A stretch of DNA of 53,143 bases from NCBI GenBank assembly GCA_949738935.1, contig CATJCJ010000292.1:1-53143 (forward strand), written 5' to 3'. The stretch's first letter is position 1. Each line of letters starts with the position of its first letter. The stretch is from an uncultured Eubacteriales bacterium. GTDB taxonomy: Bacteria > Bacillota > Clostridia > Lachnospirales > CAG-274. This document shows, piece after piece, positions 27,905 to 40,535 of this stretch. The position numbers were made by a program, and so were the translations under genes. Under the pieces are notes generated by a model that worked only from the letters and a program-made list of their open reading frames with translations, was not told where the DNA came from and ran no database searches.

Positions 27905-28012
27905 ATGAAAAAAGAAAAAATTCAGGAGCATAAAAACAAAAATGCTCAAAACCCTATCAACCCTGTTGATAACAGCTCTTGTCATAATCGGATGTGTTAC
28001 AGTATATCTTAA
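27905..28012 (+). other. Out-of-frame start segment of the first chemoreceptor (probable frameshift)
   Basis: An ATG at 27905 has a good ribosome site (GAGAGGCGG, nine bases upstream) and codes [13 protein letters not shown], the short basic N-terminus usual for chemoreceptors, but then reads into unrelated sequence and stops at 28012. Removing one A from the run at 27937-27942 joins it exactly to the frame of the chemoreceptor at its first codon. This suggests a recent one-base insertion, a sequencing error, or a slip-controlled start. Confidence 0.6.
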
Positions 28013-29903
28013 TTATGACAGCACCACGGAACTTGTGGATAACAATATGCTTGAAATGGCAAGCCTTTCAGCTGATATTATTCAAAAAGAGATTGAAAGC
28101 TCCAAATCCGTTGTGGACAGTGCCGGAAAGAAAAACGGTCTTGTAAAAGGTATTGCCGCCAGCGATGTCAACCAAATGAAAGACGCTATTAATGAGATGG
28201 TTTCAGATTTCAATTACAAAAGCGGGGATGCTATTGGCCTAAACGGAATAAGTCTTATCGACAAAAAAACAGATTATTCAAAAAATGAGTTTTTCAGCAA
28301 AGCGTCAGCCGGTGAAATCTATATTTCTGACCCAATGGTTGATGACTCAAACAATATCATTTCATATATGGCTGGTCCGGTTTGGAAAGATGGTATTGAG
28401 GGCGGTTCTGTAATAGGTGTTATTTGTTTTATTCCTCAAAGCGAGTATCTAAACGATATTTTAAGAAAAGTAAATGTCTCAGATGAAGGCTACGCTTATA
28501 TTGTTAACAAAGATGGTTATACCGTGGCACATAAAGAAACTCAAACAGTGGTTGGAAGAGAAAATATCGCTCAAGAAGCAAAAACCGATTCTTCCCTTGA
28601 GGCTCTCGCTGAACTTGAGAAAGATATGGTCAGAGGAAACACCGGCTCAGGTTCATATACATATAAAGGCGAAAGCAAGTTTTTAGCCTATAATCCAATC
28701 CCCGAAACCAATGGATGGAGTATAGCTGTTGTTGTTCCAAAACATGTGTTTATGACAGGAACATACTATGGCATGGCGATTACAATTGTTTTAATTATAT
28801 TAACTATTTTGGCAATGCTTCTTGTAACCTATAAAGCCATAGTCAATATTACAAAACCTATAATCCTTTGCTCAAAAAGACTTGACAGGCTTTCCGAAGG
28901 CGATTTAACGTCAGAAATACCTGTAATCTCAACAGGAGATGAGATAGAACAGCTCTCAAACTCAACTAATGTTATTGTAACAGGAATAAACACAATAATA
29001 AAAGACATAGAATTTCTTCTCAGTTCTATGGGCGATGGGGATTTTAACATAAGAAGTCAGGCGCCTGAAAGCTATGTTGGAGATTTTAAAGCAATTTTAA
29101 CATCCATAAAAAAAATTAACAGAAACTTAAGTTCCGCTCTTGGAAATATAGCTCTTACGGCGGAACAAGTTTTCTCAGGCTCAAGGCAAGTCGCTGACGG
29201 AGCCGAATCCCTAAGTCAGGGAACAACAGAGCAAGCCGCCTCAATAGAGGAGCTTGCCGCAACAATCAACGATATATTTGTAAATGTTGAAAAAAACCGA
29301 GATAACGCCATTTCCACAAGTGATGACGCCCAAAATGTTAAAACTGAGATTGAGAAAAGCTGTAACGATATGAATGAGATGCTCAAAGCTATGGATTCAA
29401 TCAACAAAAGTTCTCATGAAGTTGAAGACATAATAAAAGTTATTGAGGATATAGCTTTCCAAACAAACATTCTCTCACTCAACGCCGCTGTTGAAGCGGC
29501 AAGAGCCGGAGATGAGGGAAAAGGGTTTATGGTTGTGGCTGAGGAAGTCAGAGAGCTCGCTGCGAAAAGCGCAGAAGCCTCAAGAAACTCAGCAGACCTT
29601 GTTATAGCATCTTTAAAAGCTGTTGAGAATGGAAAGAAAATCGCGAAAAAAACAGCTAATATTTTGTTTCAAACAGTCGCGAACGTTGATGACGCTGTTG
29701 AGAATATGAGAGAAATCTCAATATCATGTGAGGAACAATATGTTCAAGTTAAACAAATAAATGAGGGAGCCGACCAAATCGCTTCTGTTGTCCAAACAAA
29801 CTCGGCGACCTCAGAGGAAAGCGCGGCGATAAGCGAAGAACTTTCAGGACAGGCGGAAACTCTAAAAAATACCGTCAGAAGATTCAAACTTAGAAAAGAC
29901 TGA
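27942..29903 (+). CDS. Methyl-accepting chemotaxis protein with Cache sensor
   Basis: A 653-residue chemoreceptor that would signal through CheW/CheA to the flagellar motor. First helix ~5-22; extracellular dCache-type sensor ~30-270 (SFIXED-like core around [18 protein letters not shown] and SYMAGPVW); second helix ~278-300; HAMP ~300-355; signalling domain ~430-650 with the hairpin tip [20 protein letters not shown] near 503. Such Cache domains often bind small organic acids or amino acids; the ligand is unknown. The ATG at 27942 has AGGAG 13 bases upstream, a poor spacing, and lacks the usual basic leader, which lies in another frame just upstream. Alone in its direction; the FliD-like gene follows after its own promoter. 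Confidence 0.9.
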
Positions 29904-29999
29904 TTAAAATTGATTAAAGCCGTATAATGAAACTATAGTAAACAACAAAAATATTTGTCATTTGCTATAAATAAAATTTATAATAAGCGCTTATTAATG

Positions 30000-30027
30000 T
30001 AAACTTTTAACAACTTTATGTCGATGT
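30000..30027 (+). promoter_or_regulatory. Sigma-28 (SigD)-type promoter of the FliD-like gene
   Basis: TAAA (30000-30003), 16 bases, then GTCGATGT (30020-30027) fit the flagellar consensus TAAA-N15-GCCGATAT at the -35 and six of eight -10 positions. Confidence 0.65.
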
Positions 30028-30033
30028 AAATAT

Positions 30034-30070
30034 GGGAGGGTTTTGGCCGGTGAAGCAGCCAAAATTCCCC
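30034..30070 (+). promoter_or_regulatory. Leader hairpin before the FliD-like gene
   Basis: TTTTGGC (30041-30047) pairs with GCCAAAA (30058-30064), and flanking GGGA/TTCCCC extend the stem. It starts within a few bases of the expected transcript start and ends ~44 bases before the ATG, so it may stabilise or regulate the mRNA. It matches no riboswitch I recognise. Confidence 0.5.
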
Positions 30071-30113
30071 GAAGAGAAGGTCAAATATTTTTATTTTAAA
30101 GAAGGTGAAGATT

Positions 30114-31418
30114 ATGTCATATTTATCCATTTCAAATCGATATTCAATGTATTCAAGCTTGATTTCACAGACTTATTCGACAGGAGGCGCCCCATCAGTC
30201 GCTTCAACAAACAGTCTCCTTGGAATGTATTCCAATATTTATGGCGCGAACAGCTCAAAAGGCTCAACTGTTTCTTCACAAACAAGCAGCTATATGGTTA
30301 ACTTAAAAAAATCGGCTTCAGATGTCCTTGACGCGGTAGATACGATAAAGTCGTTAAACGACAAAAAGAACGTTTCCGCGAACAGCAGCGACAGTGCCTC
30401 TGTTTCAGCCAAATATAAGGGAACCGAAAAAAGAGATGATATTGAAGTTGATGTTTCCAGAATCGCGACGGCACAGGTAAATGAGAGCTCCGCTTTAAAA
30501 ACAAACTCCTCAAGTTTATATTACTCAAAAGCGAGCGGAATTTCAATCACCACAAGCGATGGAAAAACTCATTCTTTCAATTACTCGTCTTCCATTAACG
30601 AGACTGACGGAAAGGCTCTTGAAAAAATCGCTCAAAAAATTAACAAAGCGGATATTGGGGTTACCGCTTCAGTTGAGACCGACAGCAAAACAAAGACAAG
30701 TAAACTTGTTTTAAAAGGTGAAAAAACAGGAGCTGAAAATGATTTTTCCGTTTCCGGAGACCTTGCTGAAAAAATCGGACTTAACAAAGTAAAAACAGCG
30801 GCTTCCGATGCGATTTACTCAATTAACGGTGAGGAAAAAGTTTCCTCATCAAACAAAATTCAAATTGACGACGATTTAAGCATAACTCTTAACAAAACAA
30901 CAGATGAGCCCGCTAAAATTACATTTGGAAAAAGTAATATCGCCTCAATCAACGCCGCGAGAGAACTTGTAAACGCGTTCAACGGTCTCGCCAACACAGC
31001 TTACTCAACAGAAGATTCAGGCGCCGAAAAGCTTGGAAACAGACTTCAATCCATAGCAAACTCTTATGGAGCGGCTCTTGACAGAATAGGCATTTCCCTC
31101 AATGGAAAAGGTTACCTTGAAATTGACGAGGACAAAATGAAAGAAGCCGCCGAAAGCGGAGAACTCTCCAAATTTTTTGATAACAATGGAAAAGCCGGCC
31201 TTAGTTATGGTTTTACAAACAGACTTGAAAATGTTGCGAACAGAGCTTTCAATGACCCAACAAGTTTCTTGTCAAGTGCCGGAAAGGCTGAAGTTAATGG
31301 AAGCAGCAACAGCGGCAGCGGTTCTTATTTAAGTTCCGCGTCACCGGTTTCCTACAATTACATCAGCGCATACTACAGATATTCAACAGCGGCTATGTTA
31401 TTCAGCACTATGGTATAA
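30114..31418 (+). CDS. FliD-like flagellar protein of unusual build
   Basis: The 434-residue protein resembles the flagellar cap/hook-associated protein 2 in its middle: DIEVDVSRIATAQVNESSAL like the FliD N-terminal region, and AARELVNAFNGLANTAYST with LDRIGISLNGKGYLEIDEDK like the FliD C-terminal region. It differs at the ends: the start (MSYLSISNRYSMYSSL) and end (YNYISAYYRYSTAAMLFSTMV) are Tyr/Ser-rich instead of the usual helical ends that bind the filament tip. Probably exported by the flagellar apparatus or surface-located. The ATG at 30114 has AAGGTG before it. Sigma-28-type promoter, leader hairpin and terminator mark it as a single-gene unit. It may be a FliD paralogue; true fliD would lie with fliS elsewhere. 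Confidence 0.7.
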   Translation: MSYLSISNRYSMYSSLISQTYSTGGAPSVASTNSLLGMYSNIYGANSSKGSTVSSQTSSYMVNLKKSASDVLDAVDTIKSLNDKKNVSANSSDSASVSAKYKGTEKRDDIEVDVSRIATAQVNESSALKTNSSSLYYSKASGISITTSDGKTHSFNYSSSINETDGKALEKIAQKINKADIGVTASVETDSKTKTSKLVLKGEKTGAENDFSVSGDLAEKIGLNKVKTAASDAIYSINGEEKVSSSNKIQIDDDLSITLNKTTDEPAKITFGKSNIASINAARELVNAFNGLANTAYSTEDSGAEKLGNRLQSIANSYGAALDRIGISLNGKGYLEIDEDKMKEAAESGELSKFFDNNGKAGLSYGFTNRLENVANRAFNDPTSFLSSAGKAEVNGSSNSGSGSYLSSASPVSYNYISAYYRYSTAAMLFSTMV

Positions 31419-31426
31419 ACAAACAG

Positions 31427-31487
31427 TATGAAAAATAAAAAGCGGAAAAATTAACATAATTAATTTTTCCGCTTTTTATTTTTCATA
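31427..31487 (+). terminator. Strong terminator after the FliD-like gene
   Basis: A perfect 28-base inverted repeat (31427-31454 with 31460-31487) around a five-base loop, containing AAAAAGCGGAAAAATTAA and its complement. It lies nine bases past the stop, with A runs before and T runs after the GC core. Confidence 0.85.
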
Positions 31488-31541
31488 ATAAGTCATTATT
31501 TTTAAACATATCCTTAATCATTTTATAGCAATCCAATTTAT

Positions 31542-31705: not shown

Positions 31706-32827
31706 TCAAGCCATACTAACAATCTTAACATCACTGTTATAAGCTAAATCTATAGCCGTTCCATCACGCAAAACAACAATCGGCCTTGAAGGAAAATTTT
31801 GGTTTATAAAAACAACCTGAGCCGTTCTGTCGTCAGAAAGCCGAACATAAGAACTAATATATGTATAAGCGATATTTTTAGTAAACTCCAAAAGTATCTT
31901 AGTATCAAACCTGCCTATATACATAGGCTCAAAATCATTTATTATATCAAAAGGACAACGTTTTTTTACAGATATAAGCTTGTCATACTCATTACATATA
32001 GAGACAACTTTGCTTATTATATCCAAATCATCATTTTTAAGTCCATTCGGATAACCTGAACCATCAATTTTCTCATGATGATTAAGAACAGCCTGTTTTA
32101 TTTCATCATCAAGGTCCTGAAAAAGCAACATTTCATAACCTATTTCCGAATGTTTTTTAAATTTAACCAATTTCTCATCAGACAATAAATCCTCGTCCAA
32201 AATCTCCTCATCGGACAAATCAAGAGAAGCCTTGCCTATATCGTGCAAAAGCCCGGCGACAGCGGCTTTCTCAATATCCTCTTTACTAAGGTGCAGCCAT
32301 GTGGCACATATATTCGACAAAACAGCAACATTTATACTATGGGTATATGTATTATCATCCATTTTATCAAGATAACTAATATAATGAATCAAATCACTGG
32401 AACAATTAGCCGTACTGATAATACTGTCAACAATACCATAAAGCTCATCTTGATTAGCGTCTCCGCCCTGTTCCAATACAGTGATACAATTCTTAAGCTC
32501 GTCCACCTTTTTATCATAAGTCTCTTGAAAACGTTTAAACTCAGATTTTTTTACAATAGGATTTTCCTCTTGTTTTTTGTTCTCAGAGTTTTTCTTCTCA
32601 CCATCAGCGTTTGAAAAAGGTTTGCTTCTTTTATCAATAGAATAGTCCCAAATCTCAACGCTTAAAATATCCGAATTTCTTTCAAGTTTTTTATAATTTA
32701 TATTATCAAGTTTTGTGTTTTTTGCAAGAATCACAACGCCGCTCTTAGAAACAGCGTCTTTTGCGAGAATCATATTAGGTCTCAATTCAGACATTGTAAC
32801 TTTTACAGTTTCTTGTGAAAAATCCAA
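31706..32827 (-). CDS. HD-GYP domain protein, probable cyclic-di-GMP phosphodiesterase
   Basis: Predicted to hydrolyse cyclic-di-GMP, the second messenger that opposes motility. The 373-residue protein has an N-terminal ~60-residue domain often found before HD-GYP (VKVTMSELRPNMILAKDAV), a charged linker, and the HD-GYP domain (~120-300) with HSINVA, LLHDIGK (His ~195), and NHHEKIDGSGYPNG, so the metal ligands and GYP motif look intact. The C-terminal ~60 residues repeat a small beta domain. It starts at TTG (32827), eight bases after AAAGGAG; no ATG fits. Own promoter (32874-32902). Location among chemoreceptors suits a role in the swim/settle choice. Confidence 0.85.
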   Translation of the reverse strand: MDFSQETVKVTMSELRPNMILAKDAVSKSGVVILAKNTKLDNINYKKLERNSDILSVEIWDYSIDKRSKPFSNADGEKKNSENKKQEENPIVKKSEFKRFQETYDKKVDELKNCITVLEQGGDANQDELYGIVDSIISTANCSSDLIHYISYLDKMDDNTYTHSINVAVLSNICATWLHLSKEDIEKAAVAGLLHDIGKASLDLSDEEILDEDLLSDEKLVKFKKHSEIGYEMLLFQDLDDEIKQAVLNHHEKIDGSGYPNGLKNDDLDIISKVVSICNEYDKLISVKKRCPFDIINDFEPMYIGRFDTKILLEFTKNIAYTYISSYVRLSDDRTAQVVFINQNFPSRPIVVLRDGTAIDLAYNSDVKIVSMA

Positions 32828-32873
32828 AATATCCACTCCTTTAAATAAAAAGTACCAAAACATCTTTATTATA

Positions 32874-32902
32874 ATTATATACTTTTTTTTATGAAATGGC
32901 AA
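32874..32902 (-). promoter_or_regulatory. Sigma-A-type promoter for the HD-GYP gene
   Basis: On the minus strand TTGCCA (32902-32897) and TATAAT (32879-32874) are 17 bases apart, ~47 bases before the TTG start. Confidence 0.65.
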
Positions 32903-33060: not shown

Positions 33061-33244
33061 TAGAGCGTATCTGAAAACTCATACTAACTGTTGAAAATAT
33101 ACAAAACCTTATTTTTCAAGGATTATTTTTATTCTCTCAAAACTAAAATATTCAAAAAATTATTAAAAAATAAACGGAAACATTTTTATTTCATTCTATT
33201 TTTTATAATTTTTTACGCATATTTTAGTTTTCAGATACGCTCTA
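33061..33244. mobile_element. MITE-like element, family B (184 bp, perfect 19-bp terminal inverted repeats)
   Basis: TAGAGCGTATCTGAAAACT (33061-33079) and AGTTTTCAGATACGCTCTA (33226-33244) are exact inverted copies with TA ends. The termini resemble family A (GAGCCTGTCTAAAAACT), so the two may share a transposase. The interior is A+T-rich; an open frame runs through it into the chemoreceptor but has no ribosome site. Confidence 0.88.
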
Positions 33245-33297
33245 GAAAATATACTATAAACTTTCAAAACAAACTAAACAAAAAAGGAGCAAAGATT

Positions 33298-35175
33298 ATG
33301 AAAAATATCAAAATAAGTATAAGATTAACAATGCTATTGTCTTTCTGTATTGTATGTTTACTTGGATTATCTGTTTTCGCGATTATCACAATGAATCAAA
33401 TTGACAAAGAAACAGAAAATATCGCTGATAACTGGATGCCTTCCTCAGTAACAGCCTCAAACATATACATAAATCTTGCCAGATACAGAACAAGCGAATA
33501 TAAATATGTACTTACATCCATCACTGGAGGCAATGCTAATGAAGTCGCTTCTCAAGCGACCGAGTTTTACAACTTAATGCAAGATGAGATTTCAGCTTCT
33601 CAAGGTTATGTCTCAAGCACGGAAGAGCAAAGCACTTTAGATTCTGTTAAAAAAGCCATAGACGCTTACAGCGAACAATTTAAAGTATCCACAACCCTTT
33701 GTGGTGAAAACAAAAATCAGGAAGCTATGGAAAATCTCATAGGTTCTTCAGCGAATGCCTTTAACGTGGCTGTTGATGAGATTAATAAACTTATTGACCT
33801 TAATAAAACCGGGGCGTCAGACGCTAGAACAGCGTCTGACTATACATATACCTGGGCAACAACAAGCTCTATTATAGTTATTATATTTGTTCTCGTTATT
33901 GTAATCACTTTAGGTCTTTTGCTCATTAAATCAATTATAACCCCAATAAAAGTCATTGAGGAAGTTGTCGAGGAAATCGCTGACGGAAATCTAAACAACA
34001 CAGTTCATTATGACGGAAAAGACGAACTTGGTATGCTCGCGAAAGGTTTCAATAAAACCGTTGTTCGTCTTAGAGACTATGTAAAATATATTGATGAAAT
34101 CACTGATGTTTTAAATAAAATAGCCGGCGGTGACTTATGTTACACACTGGTATACGATTACAGCGGCGAATTCGCAAAAATAAAAGACGCTCTTGAAAAC
34201 CTCTCAAATATTTTGAGCAATACAATAGGGAATATACATCAAAGCGCAAATCAAGTTTCAGACGGTTCCGCTCAGGTTTCAGACAGTTCTCAGACCCTTG
34301 CCCAAGGAGCGACAGAACAAGCAAGTTCTGTTGAGGAACTTGTCGCTACAATCGGAACAATCTCCGATACAGTAACAGTCAACGCTGAAAGCGCTGAAAG
34401 CGCCAGAAAACTCGCTTACTCTTTTGGGGAAACAATTAAAGAAAGCAACACAAAAATGAATAATATGATTGACTCTATGGCTGAAATCACAGAGACATCG
34501 GGAGAAATCAGTAAAATTATAAAACTTATTGATGATATAGCTTTCCAAACAAACATATTGTCTCTTAACGCGGCAGTCGAGGCAGCAAGAGCCGGCACAG
34601 CCGGAAAAGGTTTCGCTGTTGTCGCTGATGAAGTTCGTAACCTTGCCACAAAGAGTGCCGAAGCGGCAAAGAACACTTCAGCGCTTATCAAAAACTCAAT
34701 AAAAGCTGTTGACAACGGAACAAAAATAGCTGATGACACAGCTAAAATACTTAATTCTGTTGTTGAAAAAACCGAACAACTTATTGGGACAATGAACTCA
34801 ATCGCCAAATCAAGTGAAAGTCAATCTGACGCAATTTTACAAGTAAAAGATGGTGTGGAACAAATATCAAATGTTGTTCAGGCAAATTCAGCGTCCGCTG
34901 AACAAAGCGCGTCAATAAGCGAGGAGCTCAACGAACAAGCCAACATTCTTAAGACTCTTGTCGGAAGATTTAAAATCAAAACGGGATACAATAATTCTTA
35001 CACCAATGCTTATCCGTCTCCCGCTGCTATAAACAATATTTCTATTCCAAATAATATAAATTTAAACAGCGCTCCATCTTTCCCTGATGAGATTGTTTTA
35101 GATGAAAACGCAAATGACGCTTATGTTCCTGAAGTGAATCTTGTAAAAAATGATTACGGCAATGATAAATATTAA
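33298..35175 (+). CDS. Methyl-accepting chemotaxis protein with four-helix-bundle sensor
   Basis: A 625-residue chemoreceptor. First helix ~10-32 ([20 protein letters not shown]); extracellular ~35-188 all-helical, matching the 4HB_MCP sensor class; second helix ~188-212; HAMP ~213-265 with a second HAMP-like unit; signalling domain ~340-585 with [20 protein letters not shown] near 414. The tail (~590-625) is Asn/Ser/Pro-rich and unstructured. The ATG at 33298 follows AAGGAG. An in-frame extension to 33091 exists but runs through the family B element and lacks a ribosome site, so I reject it. Ends in a strong terminator. Confidence 0.92.
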
Positions 35176-37487: not shown

Positions 37488-39551
37488 TTAATACTTTCCA
37501 AAATCCTTTGTCTTGTCAAAATCAATAACATCAATGTCATAATTAACAGGAGCGGATGCTTTAGGAACCGAAGCCGCGACAGCGTCTGCAACTGACGGCG
37601 AACCTTCAGGAATATGCTGCACACCTCTTTCAGAAGTTATATTTAATGGAGGAGCGCTTCTGTTTTCTCTCACTTCTTTTTTTATAGGTGCTGAGTTTAA
37701 AGATAACCTTTTATTTTGCTCTATAGTCTTATTCAACTGTTTATTCTGTTCAATTTCAATTCTTGATTTAAGTTTAAATTTTGATATAGACGCCATAATA
37801 GAGTCAGCGTCTTTAGCAAAGTTATTTGACGCCATTGCCTCAGCGGCGCGAGAAATTTCTCTGGCGACAGAATCTATCTCAGAGATACCTTTATTCAAAG
37901 CCTCAATTTCAGAGCCCTGCTCACTTGATATTCTTGAGGTTTTCTCAATAATAGCCGAGATATTATTAATTTTTTCTATTATATCAGAAAGCGACTCCGC
38001 CGTATTATGAGCGATAGCTGAACCATCAGAGATTTTCTCAATAGCGCTTTCAATAAGTTCTGTAATTTCCTTTGCCGCCTGCTGAGTTCTTGAAGCGAGG
38101 GTTCTAACCTCATCAGCTACAACAGCGAAACCTTTTCCGTGCTCACCGGCTCTGGCCGCCTCAACAGCGGCGTTAAGAGCGAGGATATTAGTTTGAAAAG
38201 CGATATCATCAATAACTTTAATAATGTTAGAAATACTGTTTGAGGTATCATTTATAGCGTTCATAGCAGAAAGCATACTGCCCATTTGCTCATTGCCGAC
38301 AGAGATACTCTCTTTAGCTATAACAGCGATTTCATTAGCGTCAGATGTACTTTTCTCATTTTCAACTGATTGCTGCAAGAGTTTTGAGATTCCCTCATTA
38401 AGTCTATTAATAGCGTCTGTCTGACGAATAGTTTTTCCGGAAAGGTCAGAACTTGACCTTGAAATCTGTTTTGACTCAGAATTAACCCTCTTAATAGAAT
38501 CTTCAAAATTGCTTATAAGCTCATTAAAATTGCCTATAGCGATATTAACATAATTTTTAATAACCTCAAAATCACCTTTGTAATATCCATTTAAAGAAAC
38601 ATCAAGATTAAATTTAGATATTTCATTAAAAATCTCAACAAATTCCCTAAGGCAGTCACCAATAACATCAATAGAGCCATTAACAGCGTTTTTAATTTTA
38701 CCAAAAACACCGTCATAATTACCGCTGATTTTAGAACCAAAAGTATTTTGCTGAGAAATATCATTAAATACTCTCAAAAAATCCAACATTACTTTATCAA
38801 CCGATTTAATAAAAGTATTTATTTTAACAGCGTAATCTTTAAATTCTCCCGAGTAAACATTTTCATTAATACGCTTTGAAAAATCCCCCATAGCGGCGGA
38901 ACTAATAACGGAATCAAGACTGTCAAAAAAATCAAAAACAACTCCCGAATCATCGGCGATATTATTAAAAGCCGCTTTTTCACCGGAGAAGTTCAAAGAA
39001 ATATCATCAAAATTCCCATCAACATAATTTCGAAAAGCATCGGCAAGAGCGTTTGTCTCACTTGAGAGTTTTGACACAATAAAATTAAGTTCTGAAGCGG
39101 TCTTTTTAAAATTCCCCGAATAAGCACCCTCATCAACAGAAAGAACAGCGGCGCCGTCCTCAACTTTTTTGGAAAGACCAGAGATATCAGAAACGACATT
39201 TCCAAAAGCGTCTGTAATATCAGCGATTTTATTTGATAAAACATCAATGTCATAAGAATCATTTGTTCTAAAAGACACATTAAAATTACCTTTTGAAAAA
39301 GACGTAACCTTATCAGATAACTCCGAAACCTTTTTTTCCATTTTTTTAGGAAGAACAACTCCCGCCACAATCGCTATAACAGCGACAACAACAGCAAAGA
39401 CTGAGATAAGCGCAATCGTCGGAACCGCCGAAAGACCCATAAAGACTATAAGCGAAACCGAAATAATCCCATACACAACAGAAACAGCGGCAATCGCGAA
39501 AAACGCCAAGGCGATTTTCTTTCCTGTTGACTTACCATTTTGATTTGTCAT
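37488..39551 (-). CDS. Methyl-accepting chemotaxis protein, poly-HAMP type without extracellular sensor
   Basis: A 687-residue receptor. Two hydrophobic helices (~13-35 and ~38-64) are joined by only a few residues, so there is no outside sensor. Residues ~66-370 are cytoplasmic and hold several repeated units with G-D/N-F and Y-x-G-x-F motifs ([52 protein letters not shown]), which look like a HAMP array. The signalling domain (~375-600) has [20 protein letters not shown] near 447. The tail is Pro/Ala-rich and disordered. Such receptors sense internal or membrane state. AGAAGG precedes the ATG. Upstream, ACCGATAT (39593-39586) looks like a sigma-28 -10, without a good -35. Confidence 0.9.
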
Positions 39552-39593: not shown

Positions 39594-39814
39594 CAGCGCC
39601 GACACAGAAAAACATTGTTAACAGACGCTTCGCCGTCATATTAACATTTCCTTATGTATAAAATAAAAAGCCCTTAGAGTAACACCGCATAACCAATTGT
39701 CCATAAAATTCTAATTATACGCTATTCCCTTTATACAATAATTATAAAATAAATTGATATTTATTGCAATAATTATTTAAAATTTATATATAGAAAAATA
39801 TTTTTAAATTTTAT

Positions 39815-39923: not shown

Positions 39924-40535
39924 ATGTCAGTAAACTCTGTAGATTATACAAAATACACTCAGACATATGAGGCAACTCAAAGTCAAGAACAAACTTCCCC
40001 TAAAGAAACATCGGAAAAAGCGGAAAAAACAACTCAAACAACTTATGACACATATGAAAAAGGCTCAGATACAACTTTCAACCGCGCCGACGCTTTAAAA
40101 GCTGTTGAGGCGGCAAACAACGCGAAAGCTAAAAGTATGCAGACCCTTTTAAACAGCATGATTAAAACTCAATATGAAAAATACAAAAAAGCCAACTCAG
40201 GAAACCTCAAAGATTACTTCTCAAATCTTCAAGTTGACGAGGCTACAAGACTTCAGGCTCAGCAAGAAATATCAGAAGACGGCTACTGGGGTGTTGAACA
40301 AACTTCCGGAAGAATTTTTGATTTCGCTGTCGCTCTCGCTGGAAACGACCCTGAAAAATTAGCTGAGATGAAAGACGCCGTAATAAAAGGCTTCAAACTT
40401 GCTGAGGATATGTGGGGAGGTTCTCTTCCATCAATTTCTCAAAATACTTATGACCGAGTAATGGAGCGTTTTGACGAGTATGAAAAGAGTTTAACAGCAA
40501 CATCAGCTACAACCGACACAGCTGCTGCCCAATAA
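39924..40535 (+). CDS. Small protein of unknown function in the flagellar regulon
   Basis: I do not recognise a named family with certainty. The 203-residue protein has a disordered N-terminal third rich in Thr, Gln, Glu and Lys (residues 1-50) and a compact helical part (~55-190). The segment EDGYWGVEQTSGRIFDFAVALAGNDPEKLAEM and the later LPSISQNTYDRVMERFDEY resemble a domain in uncharacterised proteins of flagellated bacteria. There is no signal peptide or membrane helix. AAGGAGG precedes the ATG. The sigma-28-type promoter and two terminators make it a single-gene unit. Possible roles are a flagellum-exported substrate or a motility-linked regulator; both are guesses. Confidence 0.72.
   Translation: MSVNSVDYTKYTQTYEATQSQEQTSPKETSEKAEKTTQTTYDTYEKGSDTTFNRADALKAVEAANNAKAKSMQTLLNSMIKTQYEKYKKANSGNLKDYFSNLQVDEATRLQAQQEISEDGYWGVEQTSGRIFDFAVALAGNDPEKLAEMKDAVIKGFKLAEDMWGGSLPSISQNTYDRVMERFDEYEKSLTATSATTDTAAAQ

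Follow-up and report, generated by a model that had tools for sequence, protein, structure and literature searches.

The gene considered here occupies positions 30114-31418 on the forward strand of a 53,143-nucleotide stretch of DNA from an uncultured Eubacteriales bacterium; we refer to this whole stretch as the window. Three chemotaxis receptor genes (MCPsignal; 27942-29903, 33091-35175 and 37488-39551) are found around it within 12 kb. The gene lies between the first two of these, is convergent with a gene for an HD-domain protein (31706-32902), and is not adjacent to fliS. Its orthologues align from the ATG at 30114, which follows a fair Shine-Dalgarno-like sequence (AGAAGGTGA, 30100-30108) and is a likelier start than an in-frame GTG at 30105. 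The features of the locus are:

29955..29984, forward strand: sigma-70-like promoter TTGTCA-N18-TATAAT, a competing start fitting at 11/12 positions, just upstream of the sigma-28-like site
30000..30027, forward strand: sigma-28-like promoter TAAA-N16-GTCGATGT, beginning 114 nt before the ATG
about 30034..30070, forward strand: leader hairpin (-23.3 kcal/mol, z -2.7; 3/200 shuffles as good)
30114..31418, forward strand: coding sequence of the FliD-like protein, 434 aa (ATG at 30114, stop at 31416-31418)
30114..30263, forward strand: N-terminal end, residues 1-50, Ser/Tyr-rich, in place of the FliD N-terminal D0 segment (pLDDT <50; unaligned to the canonical FliD profile)
30282..31295, forward strand: FliD body D1-D2-D3, residues 57-394 (VIA-align Z 19.6 to 5h5v_C; profile E 1.8e-28)
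31308..31415, forward strand: C-terminal end, residues 399-434, Ser/Tyr-rich, in place of the FliD C-terminal D0 helix (residues 398-416 pLDDT <50; unaligned to canonical FliD)
31392..31415, forward strand: C-terminal octapeptide AMLFSTMV (family consensus G-[ML]-[LM]-F-[ND]-x-x-hydrophobic)
31427..31487, either strand: perfect 28-bp inverted repeat (31427-31454/31460-31487) with a terminator score on both strands

Over its full length the protein contains neither Cys nor Trp. Ser and Tyr number 19 and 7 in residues 1-60 and 12 and 6 in the last 38 residues, and no hydrophobic N-terminal signal peptide or Sec signal is apparent on reading the sequence. Pfam returned no match up to E 10; the flagellin families were included, and Flagellin_N and Flagellin_C domains are thus absent at that level. 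The sole meaningful library match was a weak one to the NCBIfam FliD model NF005281 (PRK06798, 'flagellar hook-associated protein 2', 440 positions), which covers residues 61-355 at E 5.5e-8, leaves out the initial 60 and final 79 residues, and falls short of the curated cut-off (32.2 bits, with 375 required).

A preliminary description of this DNA had proposed that the middle of the protein resembles FliD, while the terminal segments that pack into the filament are replaced by Tyr/Ser-rich sequence. Both statements were borne out by profile and structure comparison. Searched by itself against solved structures with phmmer, the window protein gave chance-level matches (best E 0.05), so a profile of 48 family sequences (alignment A2) was needed; from residue 69 on, this profile finds solved FliDs, best among them 5h5v at E 1.8e-28. 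An AlphaFold2 model built from the same alignment has a mean pLDDT of 82.5, falling below 50 for residues 1-50 and 398-416, and its top structural matches by VIA-align are FliD chains. E. coli FliD (5h5v_C) was best, with Z 19.6 and rmsd 10.2 over 321 aligned residues (model 57-394, chain 43-411); the large whole-chain rmsd probably reflects differing angles between domains. The D2-D3 head taken separately fits more closely (5h5w_B, Z 16.9, rmsd 3.2, 179 aligned) and has the same fold as 6kty (Z 16.2, rmsd 2.4, 164 aligned), and the 5h5v_C alignment places a D1 helical region joined to this head in the model. D2-type domains of phage tail proteins also align to the model, at a Z of about 9-10 across some 100 residues; we take this as a small fold in common and not as a sign of kinship. 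A viral structure library gave two matches at E <=0.001, both poor.

Compared profile to profile, the family and 23 canonical FliDs (alignment A3) match with a probability of 99.8 over columns 79-384 of 428 and 75-573 of 649, respectively, so that in each profile the alignment excludes the two ends. The family therefore shares the D1-D2-D3 body of FliD/HAP2 (E. coli 5h5v, Salmonella 9gnz, Campylobacter 6sih) by profile and predicted fold, but differs in D0 segments that cannot be aligned, in its C-terminal signature, and in coexisting with canonical FliD. Two studies (PMC12221982, PMC7316729) describe the end parts of FliD as its D0 domain, which forms a channel constriction under the cap and contacts flagellin.

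The ends of the window protein clearly contain no recognisable D0 segments. Its model draws low-confidence helices at 6-20, 27-44 and 411-433. A model of a family member from the bacterial family f6 (L144, alignment A4) has ends at moderate confidence, with helices at 32-48 and, C-terminally, 420-434, and with short strands at 51-54 and 405-409; some full-length FliD chains reach into these ends, but at an rmsd of about 16-22. At E 0.001, FliD_C is found in 38/48 family members and FliD_N in 6/48, the latter weakly (best E 3.8e-5). Because the ends are of low confidence in the model and these few FliD_N matches exist, they may be a very divergent relic of D0.

The last eight residues carry the family's own signature. 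Among 61 members (the 48 rows of A2 and 13 of 15 ends from the phylum sample described below), counting from the C-terminus, position -8 is G in 51, the commonest residue at -5 is F (40), and position -1 is mostly hydrophobic or Cys. Position -4 is N or D in 55/61, compared with 1/23 canonical FliDs. The window copy, AMLFSTMV, carries A instead of G at -8 and S at -4, and so counts among the six departures at the latter position; a sister species (G002) ends in ALLFNAMI. The hydrophobic C-terminal tips of flagellin (QGVLSLLG) and FlgL (SLLDYI) look superficially similar, but G at -8 together with N/D at -4 is missing from the seven flagellins and one FlgL examined. The octapeptide keeps its register across the phylum, and its fixed spacing from the free C-terminus suggests recognition by some partner.

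Such a peptide, strictly C-terminal and conserved, could be read by a chaperone. One may picture the protein as a cytoplasmic or export-gate regulator, retaining the FliD body while having lost the filament anchors, that resembles FliD enough to bind the FliD export chaperone or the anti-sigma switch and delays or gates export of FliD and flagellin. We consider this very unlikely: we found no known example of such a regulator, and the D2-D3 domains of FliD are extracellular structural domains.

The gene is not the only fliD of its genome. A genome search placed FliD_N at a single site, in a canonical FliD of 750 aa with both FliD_N and FliD_C on another contig (C267), followed by FlgN-like, FlaG and FliS genes; the window gene lacks FliD_N. 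fliS occurs on C267, where it adjoins the canonical fliD, and on C380, and there are four Flagellin_N places in the genome, with flagellins on C301, C380 and C428. The assembly comprises 885 contigs with a listed contamination of 8.56%, but the C267 FliD is unlikely to be a contaminant, since in the tree described below it clusters, with full support, with its canonical counterparts from the sister species G001, G002 and G003. The window protein is not the cap protein of its genome, because this canonical FliD exists on C267 and 107/111 carriers of the gene in its order likewise have FliD_N.

These latter counts come from an evenly drawn sample of 392 genomes of the order. A 14-row profile at E 1e-6 matched 188 of them, canonical FliDs included; the paralogue was called at a profile match below 1e-50. 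On this definition the paralogue is present in 111/392 genomes and FliD_N in 231/392: 107 have both, 4 the paralogue only, 124 FliD_N only and 157 neither, a coexistence with a Fisher p of 3e-25 if kinship is ignored. Three of the four genomes with a paralogue and no FliD_N match (G112, G203, G233, G342) are 79-92% complete, and G342 is listed at 99%. Some members of the order hold several copies. Among closer relatives, the window protein finds matches at E 0.001 in 15/61 genomes, a count that includes G045, G057 and a second place in G047, which were matched only or also through canonical FliD. In the bacterial family f1 the paralogue was found in 7/37 genomes and FliD_C in 12/37; the five flagellated genomes without the paralogue all belong to one genus (g7), so flagella work without it. 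Outside the order, occurrence is patchy within the phylum. A class sample (391 genomes) yielded one match with internal stops (G430), and in a phylum sample (398 genomes) 16 genomes match at 1.5e-54 or similar strength; family-type ends were read in 15 phylum-sample members, G1017 and G430 standing outside these. Short open frames of 209-260 aa, whose similarity is confined to the rear part of the family profile, were seen at G121:C1:29236-29559, G071:C46:400-738, G150:C92:1392-1730 and G038:C35:11406-11804, and are perhaps small FliD-derived proteins.

A core tree was built from the body alone, with the ends removed (48 family members, 23 canonical FliDs, 328 columns). A single branch with SH-aLRT 100 parts the family from the canonical FliDs; the tree is a quick one with some long branches and no outgroup, and it speaks to the separation rather than to which form is older. 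The idea of a second FliD-like protein with replaced packing ends is thus supported in its core, and we are confident that the gene belongs to a distinct, old family of FliD paralogues. That it might instead be an ordinary canonical FliD of divergent sequence, missed by a Pfam FliD_N model that is too strict, is suggested by a RefSeq entry that labels one member FliD and by the FliD_C and FliD_N matches within the family. We give this reading hardly any credence: a canonical FliD coexists with the paralogue, the tree separates the two, the ends do not align, and N/D at -4 sets 55/61 members against 1/23 canonical FliDs.

The RefSeq entry is WP_306785058.1 of Agathobacter rectalis ('flagellar filament capping protein FliD'). 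It is 35.0% identical to L144 over 94% of the latter, carries the family's signatures at both termini, and differs from the family in label only, being filed as the cap. Its gene adjoins secE-nusG-rplK, and the record's source is given as 'Homo sapiens, fecal sample'. We infer from this gene position, and from the ends that the protein shares with an f6 member (L147), that f6 corresponds to Lachnospiraceae and the order to Lachnospirales. An A. rectalis record labelled 'plasmid' (NZ_CP143948.1, L180) carries rpoC, rpoB, rpsL, nusG and ribosomal protein genes, a content that fits an ordinary plasmid poorly and suggests part of a chromosome or a second one. The only match in phage collections was an unverified, unannotated 'Bacteriophage sp.' scaffold from human faeces (MT837051.1, L181) with a FliD-like stretch (25.7% identity, 65% covered); this is probably a bacterial contig, and we do not favour a phage origin of the family.

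In this genome the gene lies away from fliS and flagellin, as the preliminary description had noted, but this is a local fact that does not hold in many relatives. In f6, 67 genomes have the paralogue and 60 list both it and FliD_N; the two are on one contig in 29 of these 60 and within 40 kb in 23, counts that contig breaks lower. Examples from this family, named by Pfam, run FliW, FlaG, FliD, FliS, flagellin, glycosyltransferases, the FliD-like gene and nusG-rplK, and in G052 the FliD-like gene sits in a 17-kb stretch with FlgK, FlgN, FlgM, CheB and CheA. In two genomes only (G005 and G011, genera g3 and g9), the gene adjoins one for an Asn-rich protein with a Rubrerythrin match (L073:8621-9430 and L075:4887-5777; E 3.3e-4 and 2.5e-8), the two being 42% identical over 178 residues.

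The same description had placed the gene in a transcription unit of its own, with a sigma-28-type promoter, a stable leader hairpin and a perfect terminator stem of 28 bases. All three elements can be found, but their interpretation changes. The sigma-28-like site at 30000-30027 makes such a promoter plausible for the window gene: a near-identical element (TAAACTTTTGACTGATTTATGACGATAT) occurs in G002, about 120 nt further from the orthologue and in a leader that otherwise cannot be aligned, and G004, G005 and G011 have TCCGATAT or GCCGATAT sites upstream. Against this, the sigma-70-like sequence competes with it (10 such sites were found in the region, 4.0 being expected), and no sigma-28-like site with CGAT was present within 330 nt upstream in G001 or G003. 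Sites of the form TAAA-N14-16-GCCGATAT-like reached threshold in 14/54 upstream regions of the family and 14/169 controls, a modest excess (Mann-Whitney p 0.010). Among the controls are flagellin genes, fliD, flaG and cheA, and these have the top-scoring sites. The genome's own fliD is preceded by a sigma-28-like TTAA-N16-ACCGATAT. On these upstream motifs, sigma-28 control is likely for the genus and its neighbours and only a candidate for the order at large. Elsewhere in the window, a gene at 39924-40535 (forward strand) encodes a 203-aa protein without a Pfam match behind a sigma-28-like TTAA-N16-TCCGATAT at 39814, which is similar in sequence to the site of the genome's fliD; this gene, too, may belong unrecognised to the motility regulon.

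The leader hairpin folds stably on paper, but the leader does not align in G001-G003, nor does it have a second copy in the genome beyond chance matches, and we reject it as a conserved RNA element. The 28-bp stem is confirmed; it stands between the FliD-like gene and the convergent gene at 31706-32902, scores as a terminator on both strands, and reads as a bidirectional terminator of the two rather than a special feature of the former. Hairpin and terminator carry little weight for this reason, the one not being conserved and the other being shared. A search of the entire window against Rfam gave no match at gathering level; matches of miRNA type at 31420-31499 (E 0.0006-1) stem from the perfect hairpin, fall far below gathering scores, and were discarded.

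We favour the view that the protein is a FliD body without D0 legs, made late and exported through the flagellar type III route, that acts as an accessory at the filament tip; we assign this statement as a whole a probability of roughly 0.45. Its parts differ in strength. A role of the family in the flagellum is probable, whereas the mechanism of a tip accessory is tentative and falls somewhat short of even odds. In this scheme the protein, which keeps D1-D2-D3 of the cap together with its own Ser/Tyr-rich N-terminus and C-terminally anchored octapeptide, would be produced late with the filament genes and, as no Sec signal is apparent, would leave through the flagellar export channel. Its D2-D3 plate could then join the cap formed by canonical FliD or self-associate, and its short ends, chiefly the octapeptide, would bind a partner in place of D0 legs, so that the protein would be an accessory of the tip and not a cap that inserts flagellin. 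We prefer an exported tip accessory because the plate body is kept, the anchors are exchanged, the gene keeps company with motility genes in relatives, and it coexists with FliD. The orphan position between receptors in the window and the competing sigma-70-like site are points against this view, as are the lack of a sigma-28-like site in G001 and G003, the modest promoter excess across the family, the flagellated g7 genomes that do without the gene, the four carriers with no FliD_N match and the six members that match FliD_N weakly.

A true second cap, which would replace FliD on some filaments, for example those built with an alternative flagellin, would suit the D1-D3 body shared with FliD, the four Flagellin_N places of this genome and the several paralogue copies in some members of the order. 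The terminal regions of FliD, however, are those that contact and insert flagellin according to PMC12221982, and exactly these differ here; we consider a second cap distinctly unlikely.

The chief rival to the tip accessory is an adhesin, released or bound to the filament surface, which would likewise be exported through the flagellar channel and whose D2-D3 face would bind mucus, glycans or cells. Ser/Thr/Tyr-rich ends and the lack of Cys and Trp suit an extracellular protein, the D0 helices by which a cap is anchored in the filament are missing, carriers include A. rectalis from human faeces, and glycosyltransferase genes often adjoin the FliD-like gene in f6. Selection, however, has been purifying: dN/dS is 0.09-0.16 for the gene across four species of the genus, where dS is saturated, and about 0.1-0.3 for body and ends both. 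Such constraint, like the retention of the octapeptide across the phylum, fits a conserved internal partner more readily than a surface ligand that varies, and there is no added binding domain. Overall an adhesin is an unlikely reading, though it has more in its favour than a second cap.

FliD is regarded as the only cap protein of bacterial filaments. Databases already recognise the body of these proteins as FliD; what is new is a family with other ends and an octapeptide of its own. We found no description of it in the open-access literature, and a study that reannotated the motility genes of Eubacterium and Roseburia (PMC3720852) names fliD, in the parts available, only in the flaG-flgN/fliC cluster. 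There is thus apparently a second, widespread and undescribed FliD family, a lineage with a FliD body; of the order's 231 genomes with a canonical FliD_N match, 107 have retained it. A broader proposition, that many flagellated Bacillota, gut Lachnospiraceae among them, possess a dedicated second filament-tip protein in which D0 legs have been exchanged for a docking peptide, is on balance somewhat unlikely; if it were true, the flagellar tip would have two components, a cap and an accessory, the latter providing, for example, tip stabilisation, contact sensing or adhesion. Should the protein act at the tip, that structure would be more complex than the one-protein model; should it be shed or displayed on the surface, abundant gut commensals would be exporting a flagellar product that has gone unrecognised. 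In both cases, genome annotation and comparative studies of 'FliD' from these bacteria mix two proteins.
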